The position numbers were made by a program, and so were the translations under genes. The notes beneath the pieces are model-generated. The model had not been told where the DNA came from and ran no database searches. It saw nothing but the letters and a program-made list of their open reading frames with translations. Below, in pieces: positions 56,698-63,495 of a stretch of DNA of 64,000 bases (its first letter is position 1; each line of letters starts with the position of its first letter). Source of the DNA: Myxococcaceae bacterium. Its GTDB lineage: Bacteria > Myxococcota_A > Polyangia > Polyangiales > Ga0077539. The stretch covers positions 62,001 to 126,000 of the forward strand of contig SCUS01000195.1 in the NCBI GenBank assembly GCA_004297725.1, read 5' to 3'.

Positions 56698-56919
56698 TCA
56701 GGTCGGGCGAGGCGTGGCCGGGTAGCCCGCGGCCGCGAGGGCTCCGGCCAGTTGCGCGGCGCTGACGAGCGCCGGGTCGTGCCGCACCCGGACGGTCTTG
56801 TCGGGCGCCGAGGCGCTGACCTCGCCGACGCCCTCCAGCGCATCGAGGACCTTGGTGATGCGACGGGCGCACGACCCGCAGTGCATGCCGCCCACGTCGA
56901 ACAGGGACTCGGTGTTCAT
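56698..56919 (-). CDS. Heavy-metal-associated (CopZ/HMA) domain protein
   Basis: A 73-residue stand-alone HMA domain. The metal motif is VGGMHCGSCARR near residue 10-20, then the ferredoxin-like pattern (GVGEVSASAPDKTVRV, LAGALAAAGYPA). It would carry Cu(I) or another soft metal in the cytoplasm. Beside it lies the gene for a CorE-like sigma factor, divergent, which makes a metal-responsive pair likely. Confidence 0.9.
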   Translation of the reverse strand: MNTESLFDVGGMHCGSCARRITKVLDALEGVGEVSASAPDKTVRVRHDPALVSAAQLAGALAAAGYPATPRPT

Positions 56920-57112
56920 GTCTCGATGCCTCCTGCGGAGCCCGGTGATCATCGCGAGGCCCCGCTGCCGTGCCGACGCAGAGGGCGATCGGGCATTACG
57001 GTCTCGAACAGCGGCTGTAATCCCTCTCGAGCTGGCGCGTCTGCACGGCATCACCCACCCCCCCCCTTCGGACATGCCGCGGCCCCTGCCGGGTCGTAGG
57101 CTCAGGAGCCTC

Positions 57113-57652
57113 ATGGACCACGTCACCGCCTCGCTGCTCGGCGCGCGATCGACCTTCCTGGCCTTCCTCGAACGCCGGCTCGGCGATCGGGCGACCGCCG
57201 AGGACATCCTCCAGGACGCCTACGCGCGAAGCCTGACCCAGAGCGCGTCGCTCCGTCAGGATGAGTCCGCGCGGGCCTGGTTCTATCGGATCCTTCGAAA
57301 CGCGGTGATCGACCGCCGCCGCCGCGACGCGAGCCACGGCCGGGCCCTCGACGCCCTCGCGGCCGAGCTCGACGAGCCGCACGAGGCCCAGCCCGCGCTC
57401 GCCTCCGCGAGCTGCCAGTGCGTGCGCGGACTCGCGGCCACGTTGAAGCCCGAGTATGCCGCGGCGCTCCAGCAGGTCACCGTGGAGGGGCAGAGCGTAA
57501 AGGACTTCGCGGCGGCCCAGGGCATCACGGCCAACAACGCCGCCGTGCGGGTGTTTCGCGCCAGGGAGTCGCTGCGGGCCAGCGTGAGGGAGAGCTGCGG
57601 AGCGTGCGCAGACGACGGCTGCGTCGACTGCACCTGCGCCCCGACGCCGTAG
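57113..57652 (+). CDS. CorE-like (ECF44) metal-responsive sigma factor
   Basis: A 179-residue ECF sigma factor. Region 2: RATAEDILQDAYARSLTQSA and FYRILRNAVIDRRRR. Between regions 2 and 4 is a CxC motif (Cys 101, 103, CQC), and the C-terminal tail has Cys 162, 165, 170, 173, 175. This CxC plus cysteine-rich tail is the layout of CorE/CorE2 (copper, cadmium/zinc) of Myxococcus, in which metal binding to the cysteines activates the sigma factor without an anti-sigma factor. The start at 57113 has CAGGAG 4 bases upstream. Divergent to the HMA gene. Confidence 0.88.
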   Translation: MDHVTASLLGARSTFLAFLERRLGDRATAEDILQDAYARSLTQSASLRQDESARAWFYRILRNAVIDRRRRDASHGRALDALAAELDEPHEAQPALASASCQCVRGLAATLKPEYAAALQQVTVEGQSVKDFAAAQGITANNAAVRVFRARESLRASVRESCGACADDGCVDCTCAPTP

Positions 57653-57655
57653 CCC

Positions 57656-58192
57656 TCAGCCCACCTCCTCGGCCTCGATGGAGCGCTCCACGGTGCTGCG
57701 CCCGAGGTCGCACGTCGCGCAGCTCGAGGCCACGCAGCCCGCGTGGTGCTTCGTTCGCACGGTGATCACCGGCACGTCGGCGTGGCGGATGATCTCCTCC
57801 GCGATGCTGCCCATCGTCATGCGAGCGAGCCCGGTGCGCCCGTGCGTCCCCATCACGATCATGTCGGCGCGCACCTCCGCGGCGACCCCGAGGATGACCT
57901 CCGCGATGGGCCCGAACACCACGCGCCCCTCGGCCTCCACGCCCCGCTCGCGAGCGAGGCGTAGCTGCGGCGCCAGGTGCGCCTCGGCGTCCTGCCGGAG
58001 CAGCGCCTCGACGGACATCGCCTTCGGCGAACCGGTCGGCTGCACCGTCGCCGTCAGCGGGAGGCCGCGCGGGGGGTCGCTCGCGTGCAGCAGGAGCAGG
58101 CGCCCGCGAAACGCCTCGGCGAATCGGAGGGCCTCGGTGACGACGTGCGGCGCGCAGTCGGAGAAGTCGAGAGGGACCAGGATGATCGACAT
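57656..58192 (-). CDS. Universal stress protein A family, with C-terminal Cys cluster
   Basis: A 178-residue Usp protein. The N-terminus IILVPLDFSDCAPHVV and the ATP loop GTHGRTGLARMTMGS followed by VPVITVRT are the family hallmarks. An extra tail carries HHAGCVASSCATCDLG, a His/Cys cluster that could bind metal or react with sulfur species. Its 5' side faces the motif-rich region at 58.2 kb, shared with the YeeE/YedE operon. It converges with the CorE-like gene, whose stop is 4 bases away. Confidence 0.88.
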   Translation of the reverse strand: MSIILVPLDFSDCAPHVVTEALRFAEAFRGRLLLLHASDPPRGLPLTATVQPTGSPKAMSVEALLRQDAEAHLAPQLRLARERGVEAEGRVVFGPIAEVILGVAAEVRADMIVMGTHGRTGLARMTMGSIAEEIIRHADVPVITVRTKHHAGCVASSCATCDLGRSTVERSIEAEEVG

Positions 58193-58259
58193 GACCACCG
58201 AGCGTAGCAACGAGCGTGCGAGTGCGCTGGCCGCGATTTCCACATCGAAACGAAACACC

Positions 58260-58277
58260 ATGAAACATATGTTTCAT
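58260..58277. promoter_or_regulatory. 18-bp palindromic operator candidate
   Basis: ATGAAACATATGTTTCAT is a perfect palindrome, 67 bases upstream of the Usp gene and 143 before the YeeE/YedE operon. GAAAC repeats also precede it (58247 and 58252). The half-site TGAAACA/TGTTTCA recurs at 58385, 61653, 63417, 63496 and 63528. ArsR-family repressors bind sites of this kind of AT-rich inverted repeat; the protein is not in view. Confidence 0.65.
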
Positions 58278-58420: not shown

Positions 58421-58843
58421 ATGAACATTCCCATGGACTGGATTCGCGCCCTCGAAGGAGGTGCGCTCATCGGGCTGAGCGCCTCGCTGATGCTGGGGCT
58501 CAACGGGCGGGTGATGGGCATCTCCGGGATCGTCGGGGGGCTGCTCTCGCCCACCGCGGGCGACGTCGCGTGGCGGGCGCTCTTCGTCGCCGGGATCGTG
58601 GGCGGAGGACTGATCGCCCTCGCGACGATGCCCGGGGCCTTCTCCGGGGGCACGGCCTCGATGGGCCTCGTGGTGCTCGCGGGTCTCCTCGTCGGCGTGG
58701 GCACGCGCATCGGCAACGGCTGCACGAGCGGCCACGGGGTCTGCGGCATCTCGCGCTTCTCTCCGCGCAGCGTCGCGGCGACGCTGACCTTCATCGGCGC
58801 CGGGGCGGTCACGGTGCTGCTCACCGGCGGAGGTGCGAGTTGA
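58421..58843 (+). CDS. YeeE/YedE family protein (sulfur transporter half, PmpA-like)
   Basis: A 140-residue membrane protein with four spans. The motif [10 protein letters not shown] near residue 103-112 is the hallmark of YeeE/YedE proteins, in which the Cys moves thiosulfate or persulfide sulfur across the membrane. The split form (two short proteins) is known as PmpA/PmpB. It is coupled to the second half through a TTGA overlap. The locus holds a persulfide dioxygenase, which supports a sulfane-sulfur substrate. Confidence 0.9.
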
Positions 58844-59298
58844 CGCCCCGGGCGCGCGCGTGGGCCGAAGGAGGCGTCGCGCTTCTCTCGGGCGTGATCT
58901 TCGCGCTCGGGCTCGCGGTCTCGGGGATGACCCGGGCCGAGAAGGTCGTCGGGTTCCTGAACTTCTTCCGGGGGTGGGACCCGTCGCTGATGTTCGTGAT
59001 GGGCGGGGCGATCGCGGTGCACGCCGTCGCCTGGCGGCTGATCAAGCGCCGCCCGTCGCCCCTGTTCTCGGCGCGCTTCCTGGTGCCGACGCGCCGCGAC
59101 CTCGACGCGCGGCTCCTCATCGGCGCGGCGATCTTCGGCGTGGGCTGGGGCCTCGGCGGCTTCTGCCCCGGCCCGGGCCTCGCGTCCCTGGTGACCGGCA
59201 CGCCCACCGCGCTCGCCTTCATGGTCGCGATGCTCGTCGGCAGCTTCGGGGCCTCGAAGGCCGAGCCCGCCATCACGCGAGCCCTCCAGCGCACCTGA
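58840..59298 (+). CDS. YeeE/YedE family protein (second half, PmpB-like)
   Basis: A 152-residue membrane protein with the second conserved Cys motif, [12 protein letters not shown], near residue 106-117. [20 protein letters not shown] and [11 protein letters not shown] are other family features. TTG at 58840 overlaps the stop of the first half, with GGAGG 7 bases upstream, so translation is coupled. The two halves would form one channel for thiosulfate or persulfide. Confidence 0.88.
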
Positions 59299-59343: not shown

Positions 59344-60804
59344 ATGTGGAGAATCGCCGCCAACTCGGCGCTCGTCGTCGCGCTGTTGAGCGCCGTCGCC
59401 CCCCCGCTGGGGAGCCCCATCCGTCCGCCCTCGACGCTCCCGTCCCCGGCGCTCCCGCACTGCGCGGGCGGCGGTGAACCCGGGGCGATCCGCTTCCCTC
59501 GCAGCCCTGGAGGGACGCCCGAGGTCGACGCCGCCTGGCTCGCCGCCCACCGCTGCGGCGTGCGCGTGGTGGACATCCGCGAGGCCGACGAGATCACCGG
59601 CGAGCTGGGGCGCATCGACGTGGCCGCCTGGGTGCCCCTCGCCGGGGTCGAGCAGGCCGCGGAGTCGTGGGACCGCGACGCGCCCGTGGTGCTGGTGTGC
59701 CGCTCTGGGCGGCGCAGCGAGCGAGCGGCCGATCGCCTGCGCTCGCTGGGCTTCCACCGCGTCGCCTCGCTCACCGGGGGCATGCTCGCCTGGGGCGCGG
59801 CGTCCCTCCCGACGACCCGCGCCCCGATCGCGGCGCCCATCGCGCGCCCCGCGGCGGAGGAGGCCCCCGCGCCGTCGAGCTCGCTGGCCGAGCTCCGCGC
59901 CACGCTGACGCGCCCGGACGCCCTGATCTGGACGAGGGCCGCCACGCTGCTGGGAGCGAACACCGTGTCGTGCATCGACGGCCGCGAGGAGACCCCGGTG
60001 CTGGGCACGCCCGGAGGCGACGCGGGTGAGCTGGTGCTCTCGCTCGCGGCGCTGGAGCAGCTCCTGGGTCGCCCCCTCGACCCGGAGTGGATCACGGCGA
60101 TCTTCGACCGCTACGTCGACGCCTTCGGGCGCTTCTACCTGCACACCGACCGGCACGCGATCGAGCGCCTCGCGGACGCCCTCCGCGGCGACCCCCGCAC
60201 CGCCGCCACCGCGGCGACCTGGCGAGGCCCCGAGGACATCAGGGCCTTCGTTCGCTCCCCGCCGCCGGCGATGGAGGAGGCCCTGCTGGAGCACCTCGTC
60301 GCCCCGGAGAACGTGGGCTGCGGGCACATCCGGCTGATGATCACGCAGCCCTCGCGCTACGGCGTGCGCGAGGGGCTCGTGCGCGACGTGCTGCGCGCGG
60401 CCTTCCGCCGGGGCTGGCGCCGCCCGGAGCTGCTGGAGTACGCGATCCTGGACGGCGAGCACGAGGAGCGAGGGGTGCTGGAGGTGCAGATCGAGCACGC
60501 GGTGCACGCGCACACGCTGGTGCCGATGGTGGCGCCGCACGTCGGCACCCGCGAGCTCTTCGTGCTCCACCCGCAGGTGACGGCCTTCGTTCGCGCGGAG
60601 AACGCCTGGTTTCTGGTGGAGCAGCTCGCCCCCGCGGAGGCGGCCCGGGTGGACGCCGCGGCGCTGCGCTCCCGGATCACGGCGCTCGGCGCCCGGCAGC
60701 TCGCGGCGACGGTGGCCAGCCTGGCGCCGCACCTCCCTCACTACCGCCTTCGGATCAGCGCGCACGGACAGACCCTGGAGCCCATCTCCGCGAACGCCCG
60801 CTGA
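59344..60804 (+). CDS. Secreted rhodanese fused to carbonic-anhydrase-like domain
   Basis: A 486-residue protein. Residues 1-25 look like a signal peptide. Residues 55-155 are a rhodanese (VVDIREADEITGEL, active Cys 119 in CRSGRRS). Residues about 175-480 form a second domain with CIDGRE (Cys 210), GTPGGDAGE (221-229), YLHTDRHA (His 267, 271) and NVGCGHIRLM (Cys 326, His 328). CxDxR followed by a His/Cys site is the signature of beta- and zeta-class carbonic anhydrases, also used by CS2 and COS hydrolases. Sulfur transfer is well supported; the second activity is inference. The rhodanese is close to that of the dioxygenase at 62.3 kb. Confidence 0.75.
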   Translation: MWRIAANSALVVALLSAVAPPLGSPIRPPSTLPSPALPHCAGGGEPGAIRFPRSPGGTPEVDAAWLAAHRCGVRVVDIREADEITGELGRIDVAAWVPLAGVEQAAESWDRDAPVVLVCRSGRRSERAADRLRSLGFHRVASLTGGMLAWGAASLPTTRAPIAAPIARPAAEEAPAPSSSLAELRATLTRPDALIWTRAATLLGANTVSCIDGREETPVLGTPGGDAGELVLSLAALEQLLGRPLDPEWITAIFDRYVDAFGRFYLHTDRHAIERLADALRGDPRTAATAATWRGPEDIRAFVRSPPPAMEEALLEHLVAPENVGCGHIRLMITQPSRYGVREGLVRDVLRAAFRRGWRRPELLEYAILDGEHEERGVLEVQIEHAVHAHTLVPMVAPHVGTRELFVLHPQVTAFVRAENAWFLVEQLAPAEAARVDAAALRSRITALGARQLAATVASLAPHLPHYRLRISAHGQTLEPISANAR

Positions 60805-60831: not shown

Positions 60832-61629
60832 CTACGGCTTCAACGCGCCGTCGTCGTCGCCGCGGAGGGTCCTCCGGAGCATCCACAGGCCGAAGAGGAA
60901 GAGGCCCGCGGAGGCGTACTGCCCCGGCGTCCACCCGAAGTAGCGGACGTCGCCGCCGTCGGCCGCGGAGGCCCGGAGGAAGTCGAGCGGGAAGCGGATG
61001 GGCGGGTAGAGAAGCGCCAGCGTGGTGATGAGGGAGCCGGGCCGCTTCGTTCGCCTCGCCACGACCTGCGCCGCGATGATGAGCAGGGGCACCAGCATCA
61101 GCTCGAGCAGCCCGAGGTCGAAGCGGGAGCCGCCGGGCCAGTCCACCGCGAGCGGGCTCGTCGAGAGGGCGCCCGGGTGATCGTGAATCGACGCGCAGCC
61201 CATGCGGCCGAAGAACCAGCCCACCGGGAGCCCGTAGGCGATCGCGTCGGCGCTGCGCCAGAGGTCCACCTTGTGGCGGCGCGCGTAGAGGACGAAGGCC
61301 ACCGCGCCCCCGAAGAAGCCGCCGAAGGAGGAGAGGCCCTGGTAGATCAGCAGCAGCTCCCACGGGCGGGTGAGCAGCACCTCCGGGTGGTAGAAGATCG
61401 TGTCGAGGACGTGGCTCGCGACGAAGCCGATCGCGACGGTCCAGAAGACGTGCTTCTCGAAGCGCTCGAGGTCGAGGCCGAGCTCGCGGGCCCGGCGCAT
61501 CGCGAGCTTGAAGCCGAGCGCCACGCCGATGCCGACGAGCACCCCGAAGGGGTGGATCGGTCCGAAGCTGTAGGGCAGTTGGACGAAGGGAAGGGTCAGC
61601 GCGAGGGAGGGCAGCCCGGGGAAGTGCAT
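60832..61629 (-). CDS. Prolipoprotein diacylglyceryl transferase-like protein
   Basis: A 265-residue membrane protein with about seven spans. LSSFGGFFGGAVAFVLYA, GLPVGWFFGRMGCASIHDHPG and YPPIRFPLDFLR match the Lgt family layout. In the Lgt signature, GRxGNFxxxE, the Asn is Cys and the Glu position reads Asp/His here, so it is a diverged paralogue and transferase activity is doubtful. A TGTTTCA motif lies 24 bases upstream of its start. It sits between the rhodanese fusion and the CcmH-like gene. Confidence 0.75.
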   Translation of the reverse strand: MHFPGLPSLALTLPFVQLPYSFGPIHPFGVLVGIGVALGFKLAMRRARELGLDLERFEKHVFWTVAIGFVASHVLDTIFYHPEVLLTRPWELLLIYQGLSSFGGFFGGAVAFVLYARRHKVDLWRSADAIAYGLPVGWFFGRMGCASIHDHPGALSTSPLAVDWPGGSRFDLGLLELMLVPLLIIAAQVVARRTKRPGSLITTLALLYPPIRFPLDFLRASAADGGDVRYFGWTPGQYASAGLFLFGLWMLRRTLRGDDDGALKP

Positions 61630-62298: not shown

Positions 62299-63396
62299 TC
62301 AGGCCGTCGCCTGCGGGGGCGGGGCGTCGCGGGCCACCGGCAGTCGCATGGCGTTCCAGGCGAGCATGCCGCCTCGGAGCGAGGCCACCCGGGTGAAGCC
62401 GCGGGCCTTCAGGGCCAGCGCGGCCTTCGCCGAGCGACCGCCCGAGCGGCAGATCAGCACCACCGGCGCCTCGCGGTCCCACGACCTCGACGCGGCCTCG
62501 ACGGTCGCGAGCGGCGTGAGCGCGGAGCCCGCCACGTGGCCGAGCGCGTTGTTGAACTCGTCCGCCTCGCGCACGTCGACCAGTCGTCCGATGCCCGGGT
62601 TCGCCGCGAGCCACTCGCAGGTCACCTCCGGGACGTCTGCCGCGCTCACCTCCACTGGCGCCCATCGGGTCTCCTCGGGCTCCTCCGCGCCCACCGGCAG
62701 CCCCTGCGGAACGCCGCAGTGCAGGTTGGCCGGCAGCGCCACGTCGATCTTCTTCGGGTACGCGAGCTGGAGCCCGGCCATCGTCGCCGCGAACTCCTCC
62801 ACCGTGCGCGTGAGGGCGAGCCGCGGGTTCCACCGCTTCTCCTCGCCCACCGTCGACACCGTGCGGCCCTTGTAGTCGTGCCCCGGGTACACCAGCGTCT
62901 CGTCGGGCAGCGAGAAGACCTGCTCGTGCACCGAGCGGTACAGCTCGTGCGCGCTGCCCTGCTGGAAGTCGGTGCGGCCGCAGCCCCGGATGAGCAGCGT
63001 GTCGCCCGTGAAGGCCATGCGGTGGTCGTCGGTGACGTAGGTGACGCAGCCGCTGGTGTGCCCCGGCGTCTGACGGACCTCCAGCGCGTGCGAGCCGAAG
63101 GCCACCCGATCGCCCTGCTTCACCAGCCGGTCGGCGTAGCCGGTGCCCGCCGCCTCGGAGAGCACCGTCTGGCAGCCGGTCTTCGCCCGCAGCGTGCCGA
63201 GCCCCGTCACGTGATCGGCGTGGACGTGCGTGTCGAGCGCCCAGACCAGCGTGAGGTCGAGCTCTCGCAGCACCTGCAGGTCTCGCTCGACCTGCTCCAG
63301 CACCGGGTCGATGAGCACCGCCTCGCGCGTCACCTCATCAGCCAGCAGGTACGTGTACGTCGAGGTCTCTGGATCGAAGAGCTGTCGCATCAACAT
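62299..63396 (-). CDS. Persulfide dioxygenase fused to rhodanese
   Basis: A 365-residue fusion. Residues 1-240 are an ETHE1-type metallo-beta-lactamase dioxygenase: HVHADH (57-62), QTPGHTSGCVTY, AFTGDTLLIRGCGRTDFQ and YPGHDYKG. Residues 265-355 are a rhodanese (VDVREADEF, active Cys 316 in CRSGGRS). The dioxygenase oxidises glutathione persulfide to sulfite; the rhodanese exchanges thiosulfate and persulfide. Such fusions (PRF) are known from Burkholderia. ATG 63396 has AAGGAG upstream. The half-site motif occurs three times in its upstream region, shared with the divergent exporter gene. Confidence 0.93.
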   Translation of the reverse strand: MLMRQLFDPETSTYTYLLADEVTREAVLIDPVLEQVERDLQVLRELDLTLVWALDTHVHADHVTGLGTLRAKTGCQTVLSEAAGTGYADRLVKQGDRVAFGSHALEVRQTPGHTSGCVTYVTDDHRMAFTGDTLLIRGCGRTDFQQGSAHELYRSVHEQVFSLPDETLVYPGHDYKGRTVSTVGEEKRWNPRLALTRTVEEFAATMAGLQLAYPKKIDVALPANLHCGVPQGLPVGAEEPEETRWAPVEVSAADVPEVTCEWLAANPGIGRLVDVREADEFNNALGHVAGSALTPLATVEAASRSWDREAPVVLICRSGGRSAKAALALKARGFTRVASLRGGMLAWNAMRLPVARDAPPPQATA

Positions 63397-63416
63397 GGGT
63401 TGTGACTCCTTGGGAT

Positions 63417-63423
63417 TGAAACA
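63417..63423 (+). promoter_or_regulatory. TGAAACA motif, PDO upstream region
   Basis: Half-site copy 20 bases upstream of the dioxygenase start. Confidence 0.4.
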
Positions 63424-63495
63424 CGGCTGCAACCGATGTGCCGCCAGTATCCATCGGCATCCCTGTGCAGAAGCCCGACGCCGTGGATCCGTCGA

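Follow-up and report, generated by a model that had tools for sequence, protein, structure and literature searches.

A putative exported rhodanese joined to a zeta-carbonic-anhydrase-like domain in a myxobacterial persulfide locus

Introduction

A gene from a Myxococcaceae bacterium appears to place a sulfur-transfer domain and a carbonic anhydrase (CA)-like domain on a single, probably exported polypeptide, which raises the question of what chemistry such a protein would carry out and why it is encoded among genes for persulfide handling. The gene lies in a 64,000-nucleotide stretch of contig SCUS01000195.1 (positions 62,001 to 126,000; hereafter the window, in whose coordinates all features are given unless another contig is named). 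A preliminary description of this DNA had proposed a secreted rhodanese fused to a domain with a Cys-x-Asp-x-Arg plus His/Cys site as in beta- and zeta-class CAs. To our knowledge, discussion of zeta-class CAs is usually confined to diatoms and other algae. Here we follow up this proposal by comparing the protein with its relatives, with the known CA classes and with the genes around it.

Results

The gene (59344..60804, + strand) was confirmed as an open reading frame with an ATG start and encodes 486 amino acids. Its N-terminus contains a run of 15 hydrophobic residues with a mean Kyte-Doolittle value of 2.16, and residues ~3–20 (59350..59403, +) form a probable signal sequence. No lipobox was found in the N-terminus of the window protein; several orthologues do have one. 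Hydrophobic N-terminus and orthologue lipoboxes together make export likely, and it is as a prediction of this kind that the signal peptide and periplasmic location proposed earlier can be kept. The rhodanese domain (PF00581, residues 65–152; 59536..59799, +) scored 44.3 bits against a cut-off of 22.2 (E 2.6e-11), and its active-site loop, C119-RSGRR (59698..59715, +), is intact, with the catalytic Cys of the CxxGxR motif in place. In a sequence search of the PDB the nearest solved structures to this domain were those of the BpPRF rhodanese (5ve3/5ve4). BpPRF is a persulfide dioxygenase-rhodanese fusion (5VE3), and such a fusion is also encoded in the window cluster; the window protein differs from it in its predicted export and in carrying a CA-like partner domain rather than a dioxygenase of the metallo-beta-lactamase fold. 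By eye, Cys40 and Cys71 (window numbering) are common to 10 of the 12 exported members with an active loop and are both missing from the other two, a pattern that would fit a periplasmic disulfide. Since the rhodanese and the CA-like residues 175–486 share one 486-aa frame, the fusion itself was borne out. No rhodanese-CA fusion was found in the open PMC literature, in agreement with the earlier statement that no protein of this architecture had been described, though this is weak evidence of absence.

To characterize the C-terminal domain (residues 175–486, 312 aa; 59866..60801, +), we compared it with Pfam and NCBIfam and obtained no match, even at permissive cut-offs; its relatives likewise gave no convincing match to Pfam, and the PDB, queried with this domain both as a single sequence and as a profile, returned nothing convincing. 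It is nonetheless a real conserved family, of which we gathered 52 non-redundant members. The motifs first read from the single sequence (CIDGR, GTPGGDAGE, YLHTDRH and GCGH) are all present, starting at residues 210, 221, 265 and 325, and their blocks are kept in all 52 relatives; given this conservation, they are not a product of chance. C210-I-D212-G-R214 (59971..59985, +) contains the first predicted metal ligand and a putative Asp-Arg dyad and is conserved in 52/52. In the GTPGGDAGE block (60004..60030, +) the GG pair is found in 52/52, and PGG occurs in the zeta-class enzyme CDCA1 as well. Y265-L-H267-T-D269 within YLHTDRH (60136..60156, +; 52/52) holds the candidate His ligand, most likely His267, and G325-C326-G-H328 (60316..60327, +; GCG in 52/52) the predicted second Cys ligand. 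The last block, D-G-E-H373-E-E375 (60451..60468, +), has the form GxHxE, written HGSHxE in CDCA1, with G, H and E present in 52/52 and a match by hhalign. Thus no member of the family departs from C-x-D-G-R, GG, Y-x-H-x-D, GCG or L-x-G-x-H-x-E, nor from R163, F227 or LP (alignment numbering). A combined regular expression of the five blocks matched 80 of 1416 open reading frames, namely 71 of this family, nine true CDCA proteins and none of any other kind.

The order of these blocks is that of the zeta class. CDCA1 binds its metal through C263, H315 and C325 and has an Asp-Arg dyad starting at D265 (PMC6158936). Using CDCA1 repeat sequences that we checked against PDB chains 3BOB, 3BOH and 3UK8, the equivalents in the same order are C210/D212/R214 for C263/D265/R267 (CVDGR), H267 for H315 (HGD) and C326 for C325 (GCG). 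The distance between ligands is not that of CDCA: it is typically x, x+57, x+116 in the family against x, x+52, x+62 in CDCA. The flanking intervals agree (57 against 52 residues from the first Cys to His, 47 against 42–44 from the second Cys to GxHxE) and only the His-to-Cys interval does not (~59 against 10–12), suggesting an insert of ~48 residues, absent from CDCA, after His and ahead of the second Cys (within 60157..60315, +). When family profiles were aligned by hhalign with CDCA and bacterial PF18484 proteins, the probability was 45–86% (P 2e-4 to 5e-6), the confident core spanning only the half from GCG to GxHxE; as controls, the highest value was 0.6% when the columns of the family profile were shuffled (40 trials) and 2.8% when the CDCA profile was shuffled (100 trials). 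Taken together, the domain is probably homologous to CDCA. As neither the window protein nor any relative reached the PF18484 score and the ligand spacing differs, we call it zeta-CA-like and not a zeta-CA. It differs further from CDCA1 in an extra C-terminal FVxHPQV motif and helical part, and the window protein also in its rhodanese and predicted export.

Two other CA classes were considered and rejected. Beta-CAs, including the beta-CA-type COS/CS2 hydrolases (PF00484), have a Cys-x-Asp-x-Arg site with His and Cys ligands too, but the family has no PF00484 match, lacks H-x2-C (the second motif of the window protein being GCGH), and reached only 5–8% with beta-CA by hhalign. LCIB-type CAs (PF18599), which are also found in some Myxococcota, have a Cys/His/Cys site, but the family has different motifs, no PF18599 match and less than 1% hhalign probability with three LCIB-type proteins. 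The suggestion of a site as in beta- and zeta-class CAs therefore survives for the zeta class and falls for the beta class, and the profile comparison proposed with it favours CDCA without giving a Pfam match.

AlphaFold models were less informative. The underlying alignment held only two sequences (the window protein and an 83%-identical relative; 82–85% identity), and the two models had pLDDT values of 61 and 56, falling below 50 around CxDGR and GxHxE. The His-to-Cys insert was helical with pLDDT ~80–94 within an otherwise poor model. Foldseek gave no match below E 1 with the first (poor) model, and the weak globin-like and helical matches that were all Foldseek/VIA-align found with it were disregarded. 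Because the models are poor, we make no claim about the geometry of the metal site.

We then asked how the family is distributed. Whole-genome searches with the domain detected it in 26 of 57 close relatives, in 43 of the 184 genomes examined from the order and in 24 of 284 across the phylum. All members found are from Myxococcota, the phylum covered by the sensitive searches; the metagenome-assembled genome carrying the sister gene is a Myxococcales bacterium. A scan of genome contigs by exact patterns derived from one sequence recovered the sister gene alone, and a search of viral contigs, plasmids and phages found no relatives. Genuine CDCA proteins, far above the PF18484 cut-off, were observed in 9 of 284 Myxococcota genomes (L017, L025–L032); the phylum thus contains both lineages.

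A tree of 51 members resolved three architectures: 5 stand-alone, 14 exported (the window gene included) and 32 cytoplasmic proteins, the labels "exported" and "cytoplasmic" being predictions from the N-termini. The stand-alone branch consists of five proteins lacking a rhodanese, within one family of the phylum. In the exported clade the rhodanese Cys is kept in 12 of 13; the exception, L111, has Asp, and we count it as exported because of its position in the tree and its hydrophobic N-terminus. The 83%-identical sister of the window gene (L002:8001-8927), also of the exported clade, has no rhodanese and keeps a lipoprotein signal, in a neighbourhood similar to that of the window gene; the rhodanese may thus have been lost (or gained) recently. 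Cytoplasmic members have an extra N-terminal segment, and their rhodanese Cys is replaced by Ser in 30 of 32; L012, L014, L015, L016, L041 and others combine a Ser loop (SRGGER and similar) with an N-terminal RVNW segment and the CA-like fusion. All branches retain the CA-like site, while the rhodanese varies or is absent; the family is therefore built around the CA-like domain.

The surroundings of the window gene point to sulfur metabolism, and the persulfide locus named in the preliminary description was confirmed. Upstream and in the same direction lie one half of a YeeE/YedE-type sulfur transporter (58421..58843, +; PF04143 E 8e-6, just below cut-off) and a second YeeE-like half (58840..59298, +), homologues of which recur beside relatives; the stop codon of the second half is 45 bases before the gene start, suggesting an operon. 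A persulfide dioxygenase-rhodanese fusion is encoded at 62299..63432 (−; Lactamase_B E 5e-19, Rhodanese E 4e-14). Just beyond the window are a TauE/SafE gene and a PAS/sigma-54 activator, an arrangement that, judged by its domains, resembles FisR-type sulfane-sulfur regulation. Sigma-54 promoter matches preceding yeeE and the persulfide dioxygenase gene were set aside, as their total over the window equals chance. Other neighbours are a universal stress protein (Usp; 57656..58261, −), kept in two other loci, and CcmH. The domain search also placed a prolipoprotein diacylglyceryl transferase, Lgt, at 60832..61629 (−); it adjoins the 83%-identical sister gene as well (L093) and possibly serves the lipoprotein forms of the protein. 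Further upstream (56698-57652) an HMA-domain gene (minus strand) adjoins that of an ECF-type sigma factor whose C-terminus is rich in Cys (CGACADDGCVDCTC).

To compare branches, we scored 36 loci, about 8–19 kb long, for genes lying no more than about 9 kb away. Persulfide dioxygenase, YeeE, TauE or SulP was near 7 of 12 exported, 4 of 5 stand-alone and none of 19 cytoplasmic genes. Pooling the first two gives 11/17 against 0/19 (Fisher p 2e-5), a value that is indicative and overstates independence because the counted loci are related. By eye, the cytoplasmic genes L080, L091, L094 and L095, from one bacterial family, are near RNase Z-like metallo-hydrolase and UMP-kinase-like genes, not sulfur genes. 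Genomes have 1–9 SulP matches, and it is the best-scoring SulP of the genome that adjoins 4 of 5 stand-alone genes. In two genomes the same SulP subfamily is found beside a persulfide-dioxygenase-like gene without a CA-like gene, so this transporter may belong to the sulfur module and not be a partner of the CA. Likely SulP-beta-CA fusions were also seen, in the host genome (G000:C193:91298-93379, L150) and in a relative (G096:C56:13598-15775), where the beta-CA and SulP matches fall in open frames of equal length, 808 and 757 aa respectively. Finally, the genome of the window gene has four full-length beta-CA matches, and a housekeeping CA role is therefore not needed.

Discussion

The reading that we prefer, with a probability of roughly two in three, is that the window protein is an exported two-domain sulfur/carbon enzyme whose C-terminal domain would act as a zeta-CA-like lyase or hydrolase on CO2 or on COS/CS2 in the course of persulfide handling. 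A CA-type metal site in this domain is quite probable, and we infer that the domain would both bind metal and catalyse. As a mechanism, and going by what is known of its family, Cys119 of the rhodanese can carry a persulfide; a single Zn or Cd would be held by Cys210, His267 and Cys326; and a water or hydroxide on this metal would be positioned by Asp212-Arg214 to attack a linear CX2 substrate. The outcome would be CO2 hydration, or COS/CS2 hydrolysis, at the cell envelope beside the persulfide-oxidation module, and the persulfide dioxygenase would be supplied by any H2S released or by sulfane sulfur held on the rhodanese. Another possibility is that the bicarbonate would be for a partner anion transporter, which is SulP in related loci. 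Between CO2 and COS/CS2 as the substrate we are about equally divided.

Each of these substrates corresponds to a narrower explanation. That the protein is a plain CA, confined to CO2 hydration, supplying bicarbonate for SulP exchange or buffering the periplasm with the rhodanese as an independent passenger, is possible though doubtful. It would account for the zeta-CA-like site, the SulP neighbours, the likely SulP-beta-CA fusions of the phylum and the branches lacking either the rhodanese or its catalytic Cys. It does not sit easily with exported forms whose rhodanese is still active and whose genes are found in persulfide loci, with the other CAs already in the genome, or with the occurrence of the same SulP subfamily beside persulfide dioxygenase where no CA-like gene is present. 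We regard it as somewhat unlikely that the enzyme is strictly a COS/CS2 hydrolase (or one acting on thiocyanate-derived COS) that passes H2S to the persulfide-oxidation module while the rhodanese takes up sulfane sulfur. The persulfide locus is consistent with such a role, and the enzymes established for these substrates (COSase and CS2 hydrolase) have a CA-type site, which counts for it; but they are relatives of beta-CA, to which this family is not close.

Two further alternatives were weighed. An unrelated metalloenzyme that arrived at a similar Cys-Asp-Arg/His/Cys set by convergence would be compatible with hhalign probabilities below 90%, the long insert between His and Cys and the poor AlphaFold models, yet convergence is made improbable by a score far exceeding that of shuffled profiles and by the shared order of five blocks, whose flanking spacings are similar. 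Least probable of all is a metal or anion sensor or chaperone, which would bind Zn/Cd or an anion, have no catalytic activity and gate the rhodanese: a regulatory pair would be expected to look like the Cys-less rhodanese and domain of the cytoplasmic branch, and an HMA metal-binding domain gene is nearby, but the Asp-Arg dyad and GxHxE vary no more than the ligands do, as is typical of catalysis.

Returning to the exported two-domain enzyme and its relatives, we tentatively suggest that the family may form a new bacterial CA-type class distantly related to the zeta class, whose exported branch would couple a rhodanese to CO2 or COS/CS2 chemistry in sulfane-sulfur metabolism, and whose cytoplasmic members, with their Cys-less rhodanese, would be regulatory. 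As far as we know, structures of the zeta class come from one diatom enzyme able to use cadmium. If our reading is correct, that class would be widened, or a new class established, by a widespread bacterial relative absent from Pfam and NCBIfam, and a fusion open to direct assay would tie CO2 or COS chemistry to persulfide handling. With an active rhodanese in its exported branch, a Cys-to-Ser replacement in its cytoplasmic branch and no rhodanese in its stand-alone branch, the family is a natural experiment.
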